Shown piece after piece: positions 11,791 through 31,214 of a stretch of 64,000 nucleotides of DNA. Below the pieces are notes generated by a model that searched no databases, was not told where the DNA came from, and saw only the letters and a program-made list of their open reading frames with translations. Origin of the DNA: Candidatus Latescibacterota bacterium (GTDB lineage: Bacteria; JAAXHH01); assembly GCA_022821085.1 (NCBI GenBank), contig JAJEEG010000006.1, positions 2,253,330 through 2,317,329 on the forward strand, read 5' to 3'. Made by a program: the position numbers and the translations under genes. The stretch's first letter is position 1. Each line of letters starts with the position of its first letter.

Positions 11791-12783
11791 ATGGGACCGG
11801 AGAAGGAACCGTTTAAACGATTGGATGTTCGCTCCAGGTGGCCGCGCGAAGACTTGGATTTCACACCGTGGTTGGCGGGAAAACTCGACCTTGTCGGAAA
11901 TCTTATTGGCAAAAACCTAGAACTTGTTGGACAGGAGAAGCAAGTCGGCTCATTTTTTAAACTCGATATCTTGGCCAAAGAGACCGATACTGACACGTTG
12001 GTCGCGATCGAGAACCAGCTGGAGCGGTCAGATACCGATCATCTGGGCCGCCTCATTGCCTATTCAACACTTCTCAATGCTCGTACCGCAATCTGGGTTG
12101 CACCTGAGTTCACGTACGAGCACGCTGAAGTCCTGAATCGTCTCAACGAGTGGTCAATTAAAGATATTGAGTTCTATGGACTAAAACTCGAAGTTATAAT
12201 AAAATCCGCTGGCTCGGAGCCCGAACCCAGTTTACTGAAGGTGGTTTACCCGGGTTGTTGGGATCGGGATATTACCCTACCGGTTGATCCACCAACTCCA
12301 CCCCATATCCAGAAATACACCGACTTCTTCGAGCCTTTAATTACGGAATTTCTCAAGAATGGATTTGCTCACAGACCACCCAGAAAGATGTTTGGCAACT
12401 CTGGACGATACTTTCCTTCCATGGTGAATGACGGAATTTGGTATGCTGGGTCCCTTGAGGGTAAAAACGAGGCGTGGGTAACCGTATATATCCAAACCGA
12501 TAACAACGAGAAGACGAAACAAATCTACTGTCAATTGGAAGCTGCAAAAGATCAGCTCGAATCAGAGGTTCAAGCCCATCCCGAACCCGAATGGCACTGG
12601 CGTCCTCATGAAAGACACACGTTTTCCAGCATAAACATAAGAAAGGACGGCAGCATTGACGACCCAGCGGACAAACTCGAAGATACCAGGGCGTGGATGC
12701 TGGACCTTCTTCCCAAGCTCAAGAAGGTATTTGACCCGAAGATTGCAGAATTGCTTTCGGATCAGCAAAAGTGCAGTAGGTAA
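11791..12783 (+). CDS. DUF4268 domain protein with nuclease-like N-terminus
   Basis: 330 residues. The first half (LAKETDTDTLVAIENQLERS, then HLGRLIAYSTLL) has the D...xE(N/K)Q pattern of PD-(D/E)XK-like nuclease folds; the second half (FFEPLITEFLKNGF, then WYAGSLEGKNEAWVTVYI) matches DUF4268, often found beside restriction or defence genes. Its real function is unknown. The gene is less GC-rich than its neighbours, which suggests transfer. ATG 11791 is chosen over GTG 11770 because GGGAGGG stands 4 bases upstream of it. It stands alone, between the SDR gene and the convergent sugar ABC operon. Confidence 0.75.
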   Translation: MGPEKEPFKRLDVRSRWPREDLDFTPWLAGKLDLVGNLIGKNLELVGQEKQVGSFFKLDILAKETDTDTLVAIENQLERSDTDHLGRLIAYSTLLNARTAIWVAPEFTYEHAEVLNRLNEWSIKDIEFYGLKLEVIIKSAGSEPEPSLLKVVYPGCWDRDITLPVDPPTPPHIQKYTDFFEPLITEFLKNGFAHRPPRKMFGNSGRYFPSMVNDGIWYAGSLEGKNEAWVTVYIQTDNNEKTKQIYCQLEAAKDQLESEVQAHPEPEWHWRPHERHTFSSINIRKDGSIDDPADKLEDTRAWMLDLLPKLKKVFDPKIAELLSDQQKCSR

Positions 12784-27383: not shown

Positions 27384-28250
27384 TTAGTCCGCGTAGGCGG
27401 CCAGGCGGCTGCCGTGACGGGTATGGCGAAGCTTGTTGATGGCCTTCTGCTTGATCTGGCGGATCCGTTCCCGCGTCAGGCCGAACCGAACCCCGATCTC
27501 TTCCAGCGTGTACGCCCGGTCCGAATTCAGACCGAAGTACAGGTTCAACACCTCGCTCTCGCGATCGGTCAGGTTCGATACCGCACGCCGCACTTCCGTC
27601 CGCAGCAGCTCTTCCTGCAGTGCATCGTCAGGCATCTTGCTGTCCTGGTCCCGGAGCCGGTCCATCAGGGTATAGGCATCCTGGTCGCCAACCGGCGCGT
27701 CCAGCGAAAGCGGCGTGCTTGCCCACTCCGGCAGGGCGGGATGGCGGCCCTTGCCGTAACTCCGCGCTTCGCCCTCGTCACCGCCGTCACCGGAAGCTTC
27801 CCCGGCCTGGGCCATTTCGGCTTCGCGCTTCTTGATGGAACGCTCGATCCGGCGCAGTTCCTCGATCTTGTTGACGGGCAGCCGGATCAGCCGGGCCTGC
27901 TCGGCCAGCGCGTGGAGGATCGCCTGCCGGATCCACCAGACCGCGTAGGAGATAAACTTGAACCCCTTTTTCTCGTCGAAACGGCGCGCGGCTTTCATCA
28001 GGCCGATGTTCCCCTCGCTGATCAGATCGGAAAGGGCCAGGCCCTGGTTCTGGTACTGCTTTGCGACCACGACGACGAAACGAAGGTTCGCGTGAATCAT
28101 GGTCTCCAGCGCCTTCTCGTCGCCGTCCCGGATGCGGCGGGCCAGTTCCTCCTCATCCTCGGGCGTGAGCAGTTCCGTATCGCCGATCTCTTTCAGGTAT
28201 AGGTCGAGCGACTCGTCATCTCTGACCTGGATCTTCGTGGTCAGTTTCAT
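27384..28250 (-). CDS. RNA polymerase sigma factor, RpoD/SigA family (short form)
   Basis: 288 residues. Region 1.2 begins DESLDLYLKEIGDTELLTPEDEEEL, region 2 has RFVVVVAKQYQNQGLALSDLISEGNIGLMKAARRFD and FKFISYAVWWIRQAI (-10 recognition), region 4 has TLEEIGVRFGLTRERIRQIKQKA (-35 recognition). There is no region 1.1, as in Bacteroidetes-type primary or group 2 sigma factors. The region 3 linker holds an odd Gly/Asp/Glu-rich insertion (AGEASGDGGDEGEARSYGKG, about residues 150-169). GGAGGTGAT is an excellent ribosome site. It is divergent from hsp20-dnaK and may drive stress or housekeeping transcription. Confidence 0.92.
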   Translation of the reverse strand: MKLTTKIQVRDDESLDLYLKEIGDTELLTPEDEEELARRIRDGDEKALETMIHANLRFVVVVAKQYQNQGLALSDLISEGNIGLMKAARRFDEKKGFKFISYAVWWIRQAILHALAEQARLIRLPVNKIEELRRIERSIKKREAEMAQAGEASGDGGDEGEARSYGKGRHPALPEWASTPLSLDAPVGDQDAYTLMDRLRDQDSKMPDDALQEELLRTEVRRAVSNLTDRESEVLNLYFGLNSDRAYTLEEIGVRFGLTRERIRQIKQKAINKLRHTRHGSRLAAYAD

Positions 28251-28290
28251 TCCGTATCACCTCCCTGCCAGCCCTGTTGCACGTTTTTGT

Positions 28291-28340
28291 GTTGGCAGTC
28301 ACGATATGCCAATTTGTCATGTTCTGCCAATTTGGCATAT
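28291..28340. promoter_or_regulatory. Cluster of TGCCAA/TTGGCA operator-like sites
   Basis: TTGGCA at 28292, TGCCAATTTG at 28307 and the 13-base palindrome TGCCAATTTGGCA at 28325-28337; the outer arms ATATGCCAA and TTGGCATAT form a perfect 9-base inverted repeat (28304-28312, 28332-28340). The cluster lies immediately downstream of the sigma gene's -10 box and about 140-180 bases upstream of the hsp20 sigma-54-like promoter, so it could be an operator for one or an activator site for the other. Confidence 0.6.
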
Positions 28341-28368
28341 TCTATATGCGCTTACTCAGATTAGTCAA
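28339..28368 (-). promoter_or_regulatory. Sigma-70-type promoter of the sigma factor gene
   Basis: On the minus strand, TTGACT (28368-28363), 18 bases, TAGAAT (28344-28339), about 90 bases upstream of the sigma ATG. The TGCCAA site cluster starts where transcription would begin. Confidence 0.6.
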
Positions 28369-28376
28369 ATATCACC

Positions 28377-28400
28377 ACGCAAATCTTGCGCTTTTTTTAA
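28377..28400 (+). terminator. Small terminator-like hairpin
   Basis: CGCAA-ATC-TTGCG followed by C and seven T, on the plus strand between the sigma promoter and the hsp20 promoter. The stem is only 5 bp, so this is tentative; it would stop plus-strand transcripts before hsp20. Confidence 0.35.
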
Positions 28401-28473
28401 AATAGACTAACCAGCTCATTATCAACGACTTACGGTGCTCCCCTTACTTTCTTTCGGATGCATCCATTCGAAC

Positions 28474-28489
28474 TGGCACGCTCTTTGCG
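28474..28489 (+). promoter_or_regulatory. Candidate sigma-54 promoter of hsp20
   Basis: TGGCAC at 28474-28479, 5 bases, TTGC at 28485-28488: the -24 GG and -12 GC are exactly 10 bases apart, as required for sigma-54. The hsp20 start codon is 153 bases downstream with GGAGGAG before it. No CIRCE element is visible. Confidence 0.6.
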
Positions 28490-28640
28490 CTAACTATATC
28501 GCAGATGACGGAGCTGCCGTATCGCCCGCGTTCTAAACTAATGTACGCCGGCGATGGCCATTCGGTTCCGAAAGGCGGCAAAGAGATTGTGAAGAGGACA
28601 GTTTGTAACTTTAGTGGTAACTTTAAAACGGAGGAGCATC

Positions 28641-29063
28641 ATGAGAGCGACGACCATTTTCCCGCTGGCGAACCTGCATAACCTGCGGACCGAACTCGAC
28701 GGCTTGTTCCGGCCGTTCCCGCTGCGGTCCGGATTCCCGGGCCGCTGGTCGCCTCGCGTGGACACCCACAAGACCGAGGACGCTTTTCTGGTCGCGGTCG
28801 ACCTCCCGGGCGTGGCTTCGGAGGACGTGTCGATCAACCTGGACAAGGGCGTGCTGACCGTAAGCGGCGAGCGCAAGAGCCCCTTCGGTCTCAACGGCGA
28901 GGCGGAGCAACGGCCCCTCGGAAAGTTCGAGCACGCGTTTCCGGTGCCGGACGCGGTGGATACCGAATCGATCGACGCCACGTACAAGGACGGCGTCATG
29001 ACGATCACGCTGCGGAAGTCGAAGGAATCGCAGCCCAGGCAGATTCCGATCAACGTTGGTTGA
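28641..29063 (+). CDS. Hsp20/alpha-crystallin family small heat-shock protein
   Basis: 140-residue cytoplasmic holdase chaperone. The alpha-crystallin domain spans residues 38-132: VDTHKTEDAFLVAVDLPGV, then VSINLDKGVLTVSGER, FEHAFPVPD and ATYKDGVMTITLRK, which is the conserved A-x-x-x-n-G-v-L/M end of the fold. The C-terminal IPI of RQIPINVG matches the I-x-I assembly motif. ATG 28641 is fixed by GGAGGAG 6 bases upstream; the earlier GTG/ATG in frame at 28614 lacks a ribosome site. It stands 180 bases before dnaK on the same strand, making a stress-chaperone pair. Confidence 0.94.
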   Translation: MRATTIFPLANLHNLRTELDGLFRPFPLRSGFPGRWSPRVDTHKTEDAFLVAVDLPGVASEDVSINLDKGVLTVSGERKSPFGLNGEAEQRPLGKFEHAFPVPDAVDTESIDATYKDGVMTITLRKSKESQPRQIPINVG

Positions 29064-29243: not shown

Positions 29244-31214
29244 ATGGGCAAGATCATTGGAATCGACCTGGGCACGACCAACTCCTGCGTGGCGGTGGTG
29301 GAGGGCGGCGAGCCGACCGTGGTGCCGAACGCGGAAGGCAGCCGGACCACTTCCTCCGTCGTGGGCTTTTCGAAAGACGGCGAGCGGCTCGTCGGCGCGA
29401 CGGCGAAGCGCCAGGCGGTAACCAATCCCGACGCGACGGTCTACTCCGTCAAGCGGTTCATGGGACGCCGCTTCGAAGAGGTGCCCGACGAGCGCACCCG
29501 CATGCCCTACAGCGTGGTGGAAGGATCGAACGGCCAGGTCAGCATACAGATCAGCGACAAGACGTACTCGCCCCCGGAGATCTCCGCGGCGGTCCTGCAG
29601 AAGATGAAGCAGACGGCCGAGGACTACCTGGGCGAGACGGTGGACGAGGCCGTGATTACCGTACCGGCATATTTCAACGACAGCCAGCGCCAGGCCACCA
29701 AGGACGCGGGACGCATCGCGGGCCTGGACGTCAAGCGCATCATCAACGAGCCGACGGCCGCGTCGCTGGCCTACGGGCTCGACAAGAAGAGCAACGAGAA
29801 GATCGCGGTCTTCGACCTCGGCGGCGGCACCTTCGACATTTCGATCCTCGAAATCGGCGACGGCGTCTTCGAGGTCATGGCGACCAACGGCGACACCCAC
29901 CTGGGCGGCGACGATCTGGACGATGCGGTGGTGGACTACCTGGCGGACGAGTTCAATAAGGAGGCCGGTATCGACCTCCGCAACGACGCCATGGCCCTCC
30001 AGCGGCTCAAGGAAGCGGCCGAGAAGGCCAAGTGCGAGCTGTCGACCGCGGGACAGACCGAAGTGGCCCTGCCCTTCATCACGGCGGACGCCTCCGGTCC
30101 CAAGCACCTGAACCGCACCATGACGCGGGCCCAGCTCGAGCAGCTCGTGGATCCGCTGATCCAGCGGGTGGTGGCGCCGTGCCGGCAGGCGATTTCAGAC
30201 GCCGGACTGTCCGCTTCCGACATCGACGAGGTGGTGCTCGTGGGCGGCTCGACACGCATGCCGAAGGTACAGGAAATCGTCAAGGAACTCTTCGGCAAGG
30301 ACCCCAACCGGGGCGTGAACCCGGACGAAGTCGTGGCCATCGGCGCGGCGATCCAGGGCGCGGTGCTGTCCGGCGAAGTGAAGGACGTGCTCCTGCTCGA
30401 CGTCACGCCGCTTTCCCTCGGCATCGAGACCCTGGGCGGCGTCTTCACGCGGCTCATCGACCGGAACACGACGATTCCCACGAAGAAGAGCCAGGTCTTC
30501 TCTACCGCGGCGGACAACCAGCCGTCGGTGGAGGTGCACGTCCTCCAGGGCGAGCGCGACATGGCCCTCTACAACCGGACGCTCGGCAAGTTCCACCTGG
30601 ACGGCATCCCGCCGGCGCCCCGGGGCATGCCCCAGATCGAGGTGACCTTCGACATAGACGCGAACGGCATCCTCCACGTCTCGGCCAAGGACATGGGCAC
30701 GGGCAAGGAGCAGCAGATCCGCATCGAGGCGTCCAGCGGCCTGTCGGAATCCGAGATCGACAAGATGGTGAAGGACGCCGAGGCGCACGCGGACGAGGAC
30801 TCGAAGAAGAAGGAAGAGGTGGAAGCCCGCAACCAGGCCGACCAGCTCGTGTACTCGACGGAGAAGTCGCTGGAGGAACACGGCGATAAGCTCTCCGCGG
30901 AGGACCGTGGCGCCATCGATTCGGCCCTGGCCGAGTTGAAGACGGCCCTGGAGGGCAGCGACCCGGCGGCCATCAAGGCGGGCACCGATAAACTGGCCCA
31001 GGCTTCCCAGAAGCTCGCGGAGGTCCTCTACCAGCAGGCCCAGGCCGAGCAGGCCGCCGCCCAGGCAGCCCAGGCGGGCGCGGCCGGTCCCGAGGGGCCG
31101 CAGGACGGTCCGCAGGGACCGCCGCCGGGCGCCCAGCAGGGCGACGATCCGCAGGCGCAGAAGAAGAAGAAGAAAGACGGCGCTATCGACGCGGATTACG
31201 AGGTGGTGAACTGA
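29244..31214 (+). CDS. dnaK: Chaperone protein DnaK (Hsp70)
   Basis: 656-residue ATP-driven chaperone. The N-terminal ATPase has [31 protein letters not shown] and [15 protein letters not shown]; the linker and substrate-binding start are [16 protein letters not shown]. The lid is followed by a Gln/Ala/Gly/Pro-rich tail that ends [17 protein letters not shown], close to the usual DVVDADFEEV-type end. AAGGAGCAAATAAGGAG gives two possible ribosome sites. dnaJ and grpE are not adjacent. Confidence 0.97.

Follow-up and report, generated by a model that had tools for sequence, protein, structure and literature searches.

The control of the bacterial heat-shock response is taught as being based either on sigma-32 or on repressors (HrcA, HspR and CtsR). 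It is also established, for the sigma-54 family, that RNA polymerase is held at the promoter as a closed complex, that an enhancer-binding protein (bEBP) assembles upstream of it, and that DNA looping and ATP hydrolysis lead to opening of the complex. The enhancers of such activators conventionally consist of paired dyad-symmetric sites located approximately 80–200 bp upstream of the -24/-12 promoter.

Concerning the involvement of sigma-54 in the expression of chaperones, a survey of Bacteroidota and Planctomycetota (Carrera-Reyna et al. 2025; PMC12316311) found predicted sigma-54 promoters to be enriched before the genes for GroEL/GroES, IbpA (Hsp20), GrpE, DnaJ and DnaK, and before those of the protease COGs 0542 and 0466 (the ClpB/Clp ATPase and Lon families). 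That survey operates at the COG level using promoter matrices, makes no use of the terms UAS and upstream activating, states that bEBP specificity was not available for all of its organisms, and refers, for sigma-54-dependent groES/grpE in Bacteroides, to a Blattabacterium genome paper (PMC12316311). In E. coli, the small heat-shock gene ibpB possesses a sigma-54-dependent promoter (cited in PMC4316790), and the hrcA-grpE operon of Chlamydia carries a tandem sigma-54 promoter (PMC8762339). Many of these genes are heat-induced in Rhodopirellula baltica, where rpoN itself is not regulated (PMC2754498).

The genome analysed in the current study shares with the Bacteroidota and Planctomycetota sets the placing of sigma-54 promoters in front of several genes for core chaperones and proteases, as was predicted for those groups, and differs from them in offering a paired enhancer, five promoters and a shortlist of three bEBPs in a phylum sampled by 16 genomes. 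Whereas in E. coli a single gene pair is subject to sigma-54 in addition to sigma-32, in the present genome sigma-54 would cover groESL, lon, clpB and two hsp20 genes, with no RpoH match over the cut-off. The Chlamydia system is alike in that one bEBP drives the sigma-54 promoter of a heat-shock operon, but it differs in its tandem promoter, in that rpoN falls on heat shock, and in concerning a single operon rather than the core set (PMC8762339). The principle of sigma-54 chaperone promoters is consequently already known; a compact core-chaperone regulon with paired enhancers and three candidate activators is, as far as could be searched, new.

The locus lies within a window of 64 kb (the whole stretch of DNA that was analysed) and comprises the following features:

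27384–28250, minus strand: sigma-70 family gene, RpoD/RpoS-like, 288 aa, with regions 1.2, 2 and 4
28251–28640: gap separating the sigma gene (minus strand) from the divergent hsp20 (plus strand)
28292–28297, plus strand: half-site TTGGCA, invariant in 11 genomes
28307–28319, plus strand: site 1, putative distal enhancer palindrome TGCCAATTTGTCA, one mismatch
28325–28337, plus strand: site 2, putative proximal enhancer palindrome TGCCAATTTGGCA, exact
28339–28368, minus strand: candidate sigma-70 promoter of the sigma gene, -35 TTGACT at 28368–28363 and -10 TAGAAT at 28344–28339
28474–28488, plus strand: sigma-54 (-24/-12) promoter of hsp20, TGGCACGCTCTTTGC, an exact match to TGGCAC-N5-TTGC
28500–28640, plus strand: predicted hsp20 5' leader, its start placed from the -12 box
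28641–29063, plus strand: hsp20 (hsp20A), alpha-crystallin family, 140 aa, PF00011 (E=1.9e-19)
29244–31214, plus strand: dnaK, downstream of hsp20A

All of the motifs that had originally been proposed for the gap between the sigma gene and hsp20, namely the sigma-54 site, the palindrome, the half-sites and the minus-strand promoter, were found to be present. An independent scan recovered the minus-strand TTGACT-N18-TAGAAT at 28368–28339, and TGGCACGCTCTTTGC is the sole exact TGGCAC-N5-TTGC sequence in the 64 kb window. The chance expectation in the same window is 2.0 for the palindrome at up to two mismatches and 4.1 for the sigma-54 site at up to one; since the motifs are singly weak in 64 kb, the case rests on their context and conservation. 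The latter was assessed in an alignment of the 11 genus genomes with the same sigma/hsp20 arrangement, in which none of the ten defined bases of the sigma-54 site varies (one spacer base does) and 12 of the 13 columns of each palindrome are invariant, compared to 81 of 243 in the remainder of the region. Sites 1 and 2, which are 18 bp apart, with site 2 situated 136 bp before the -24 box, form a conserved pair upstream of hsp20A. The candidate promoter of the sigma gene presents a mixed picture: the GACT core of its -35 element is retained in 11 of 11 genomes, its -10 element varies among them (TAGAAT, TTGAAT, TTTGAT, CAAGAT, TAAAAT, TCGGAT, TGCGAT, TTGGAT and TCGGGT), and the spacing between the two ranges from approximately 17 to 19.

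A ribosome-binding site, GGAGG, was read in the hsp20 leader. A search of the gap between hsp20A and dnaK for promoter-like or terminator-like sites returned none, for which reason these two genes are probably co-transcribed. The leader also contains a block (28536–28578, AACTAATGTACGCCGG.GA.GGCCATTCGGTTCCGAAAG), located between the sigma-54 promoter and hsp20, that is conserved in the 11 genomes and could represent either a short ORF or an RNA element. The reading frame of the former (MYAGDGHSVPK...) is uninterrupted in each of the 11 genomes, but conservation does not extend to the C-terminus and no clear ribosome-binding site accompanies it. Rfam yielded nothing relevant for the leader, and because RNAalifold gave no base pair with changes on both sides, the predicted fold being without covariation support, no RNA thermometer is claimed.

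The palindrome was then considered at the level of the genome. The pattern TGCCA-N3-TGGCA occurs eight times in the whole 3.75 Mb genome; seven of these copies are situated 90–155 bp upstream of five near-perfect sigma-54 promoters, and the eighth is intragenic (L002). The number of copies is itself not enriched (eight versus six for a reversed control); it is their placement that is, with P ~1e-22 for seven of eight copies falling at these promoters under uniform placement, a value which treats paired sites as though they were independent, and with P still <1e-12 by our own arithmetic when counted per promoter. The five promoters, each with two palindrome sites, are:

hsp20A(-dnaK): TGGCACGCTCTTTGC
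hsp20B, the second hsp20: TGGCACGGCAGTTGC
lon: TGGCATGGTGTTTGC
groES-groEL: TGGCACGGAAATTGC
clpB: TGGCACACGTTTTGC

An independent search for TGGCAYR-N4-TTGC identified ten sites in 3.75 Mb, half of which are these same five heat-shock promoters; two of the others precede BBP2 porin or TonB-receptor genes and the rest appear to be intragenic. The original prediction had recognised a single promoter where there would be a five-promoter regulon: the gap would seem to be one of five matching switches that place Hsp20, DnaK, GroES-GroEL, Lon and ClpB under the enhancer-dependent, ATP-driven sigma-54 promoter type in place of the customary bacterial heat-shock controls.

The palindrome sites are positioned 90–170 bp upstream of the -24 box at all five loci. 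In a survey of 30 promoter regions from 12 genus genomes, aligned on the -24 box and with sites scored as matches out of 12, no region was without a site of 10 matches or better and 29 held two sites with at least 9, the start of the proximal site being 90–162 bp upstream of the -24 box. The centres of the paired sites are separated by 17–19 bp at hsp20A, hsp20B and clpB and by 27–32 bp at groES and lon, two classes which differ by approximately one helical turn, so that the paired, dyad-symmetric and helically phased arrangement sought in an enhancer (UAS) was encountered in 29 of the 30 genus promoter regions. A further genome (L036) displays the same site pair and sigma-54 promoter at clpB. 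At hsp20B, a gene of the MS_channel_2nd mechanosensitive-channel family (L004:1677-2705) is divergently oriented across the paired palindromes.

The phylum sample consisted of 16 genomes, 12 belonging to the genus and four to other genera. Exact copies of TGCCAANTTGGCA were present in 12 of 12 genus genomes, with zero reversed-control matches, whereas the four genomes from other genera contained no exact copy; every exact palindrome checked in the sister genomes was located at hsp20A, lon or clpB. In all four of the other genera, groES is preceded by a sigma-54 promoter that is perfect or nearly so (TGGCATAATCATTGC, TGGCACGCGCTTTGC, TGGCACGCACTTTGC and TGGCACACGCTTTGC). Site-like sequences upstream of groES were significant in G014 (19 of 1000 shuffles) and marginal in G001 (87 of 1000 shuffles), and no palindrome could be clearly made out upstream of groES in G013 or G015. 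Sigma-54 control of groESL thus looks phylum-wide at the level of predicted promoters, and the enhancer sequence looks to have drifted, or to be a different one, outside the genus. The groES of G014 (G014:C1101, L145) was observed to have a matching frame with 80% identity and one internal TAA, possibly reflecting an assembly error or a break.

Sigma-54 control presupposes rpoN and at least one bEBP, and the genome encodes both; the absence of rpoN, which would have refuted the original proposal, therefore does not apply. The rpoN product is complete (518 aa, with activator-interacting, core-binding and DNA-binding domains), and a full sigma-54 interaction domain is found in only three proteins of the genome, which are the three true bEBPs (L012, L013 and L014). 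Together with the recurrence of the same site pair and promoter at four further proteostasis loci, this strongly supports the proposal that hsp20 is controlled by sigma-54 and a bEBP. The TGGCAC-N5-TTGC core itself has the fixed spacing of such promoters. What can be read directly from the sequence is the recurrence of the paired sites, the promoters, the set of loci that share them, the presence of rpoN, and the conservation.

Other heat-shock controls were also looked for. The sigma gene of the window is assigned to the group 2/3 sigma factors rather than to RpoH because all NCBIfam equivalogs fell below their cut-offs; no match over the TIGR02392 cut-off for RpoH was found in the genome, in which four sigma-70-family genes lie below it. 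HrcA is encoded in an hrcA-grpE-dnaJ cluster (L235:3175-6462). The CIRCE pattern (TTAGCACTC-N9-GAGTGCTAA) was not found with three or fewer mismatches in the window, which covers hsp20 and dnaK, or with five or fewer of 18 mismatches at groES, clpB, lon, hsp20B or hrcA. The HAIR pattern (CTTGAGT-N7-ACTCAAG) was not found near these promoters; one match with three mismatches in the window, at 12166, is unrelated, and one with two mismatches (L022:2068) lies over 2 kb away from the promoter of lon. The targets groESL, dnaK, clpB, lon and hsp20 are those of the HrcA/CIRCE, sigma-32 (RpoH) and HspR/HAIR regulons, but at these thresholds neither CIRCE nor HAIR elements were found at the promoters, no RpoH exceeds the cut-off and hrcA-grpE-dnaJ is without a recognisable CIRCE.

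Based on these findings, a sigma-54-dependent proteostasis (heat-shock) regulon, driven by a bEBP acting on paired palindromes, is very probably the best explanation. Sigma-54 polymerase would wait in the closed state at the -24/-12 site while a bEBP assembles on the two 13-bp palindromes (TGCCAANTTGGCA) upstream of the promoter; the DNA would loop, and ATP hydrolysis by the bEBP would open the polymerase complex at hsp20A(-dnaK), hsp20B, groESL, lon and clpB. We infer that the palindromes are bEBP enhancers, and stress or heat would be the signal to which the regulon responds. The enhancers of NtrC, NifA and PspF type show similarly paired dyad sites approximately 90–200 bp upstream of -24/-12 promoters; TGCCAANTTGGCA is not known to match any bEBP site, and a text search of the literature for both half-sites retrieved no relevant regulon.

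The weakest step of this explanation concerns the divergent gene: in the window the enhancer also extends over the place where transcription of the sigma gene probably begins, so that its occupancy could also lower transcription of that gene. It had originally been proposed that the two genes are linked, the same bEBP repressing the sigma gene while activating hsp20. The activation half of this proposal is strongly supported, while for the repression half the evidence consists of the overlap of the sites with a sigma-70-like promoter. Such a reciprocal switch would agree with the predicted start of the sigma transcript inside site 2 and with the GACT core of the -35 element being retained throughout, but neither the -10 hexamer nor the spacing is conserved, and the hsp20 promoter by itself accounts for palindromes that are found equally at loci without a sigma gene. 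Repression of the sigma gene is therefore possible but unproven, because its -10 element is poorly conserved, and we regard the switch as a whole as somewhat doubtful.

The identity of the activator was addressed by comparing the three bEBPs. L012 (C1:730918) belongs to the NtrC-type response regulators; its receiver is intact, a HAMP histidine kinase is encoded next to it, and its orthologues are clear in four of the five genera (including G001, G013 and G015). L013 (L020:4916-6571) and L014, which follows it directly, are adjacent orphan bEBPs (G000:C1:2056915-2059785) with no histidine kinase gene seen beside them, and both their conservation and their adjacency extend across genera. In these two proteins the GAFTGA motif is replaced, by GAFTNA in L013 and GAFTDA in L014, while L013 shows two AAA-lid matches and a degenerate receiver, in which the phospho-acceptor Asp is changed to Glu in several orthologues and the acidic pocket and Lys are lost. 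Co-occurrence across genomes did not separate the candidates cleanly. Autoregulation was rejected, as no copy of the palindrome is present in front of the orphan pair or at the bEBP genes; this absence, the wide conservation of L012 and the drift or difference of the palindrome outside the genus all count against the favoured explanation.

Were L012 and its kinase to drive the regulon, its cue would come from the envelope and not from damaged proteins in the cytoplasm, a reading which the intact receiver, the kinase partner and the orthologues in G001, G013 and G015 favour, but which appears unlikely for two reasons. An envelope kinase is better suited to the second promoter class, that of the BBP2 porin and TonB-receptor genes, and no clear L012 orthologue was found in G014, an incomplete genome, which nevertheless retains both a sigma-54 promoter before groES and site-like sequences, together with a 64% identical L013 fragment. 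Because the regulon is cytoplasmic, and because the envelope-type kinase system is a better fit to the porin/TonB class, the L013/L014 orphan pair is taken, by inference, as the best candidate activator in preference to L012. In the second class, TGGCACG-N4-TTGC precedes the BBP2 porin and TonB-receptor genes at L044 (G000:C1:1798191) and L051 (G000:C2:133463), which share a near-identical upstream block of approximately 110 bp including GGACTTGTTTC[A/G]CCTAGAGTCC that differs from the heat-shock palindromes.

Alternatively, the palindromes could be operator sites for a dimeric regulator of the ordinary kind (a repressor or an activator, but no bEBP), with the sigma-54 promoters being driven separately. 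Their length would suit many repressors, and the sigma transcript probably starts within site 2; an operator at the observed distance from the -24 box, common to all five loci, would however not block RNA polymerase, the sites are nearly always paired, and it is established that sigma-54 promoters require a bEBP in any event, rendering this explanation improbable. That the sigma-54 matches arose by chance, hsp20 being expressed from an ordinary sigma-70, sigma-32 or HrcA-controlled promoter, is scarcely credible: some of the ten genome-wide consensus matches are intragenic and chance-like and hrcA is present, but the site is invariant in 11 genomes and recurs at five proteostasis loci, where neither an RpoH over the cut-off nor a CIRCE element (at the thresholds given above) speaks for such control.

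In its broadest form the sigma-54 regulon would imply that the core heat-shock response of this poorly known phylum has been rewired to sigma-54, with the orphan bEBP pair, one member of which has a degenerate receiver and a duplicated AAA+ lid, sensing protein damage without phosphorylation and acting through paired TGCCAANTTGGCA enhancers to activate hsp20, dnaK, groESL, lon and clpB while shutting off the divergent sigma-70-family gene; taken in its entirety this proposition is speculative and probably goes too far. Placing the core chaperones under sigma-54 means that their promoters should be silent without ATP-driven activation, and that the activator must read stress. Where the survey of Bacteroidota and Planctomycetota leaves the enhancer site and the cognate activator unnamed (PMC12316311), this genome provides a defined paired enhancer and only three candidates, and the question of which bEBP senses protein damage here becomes a directly testable one.
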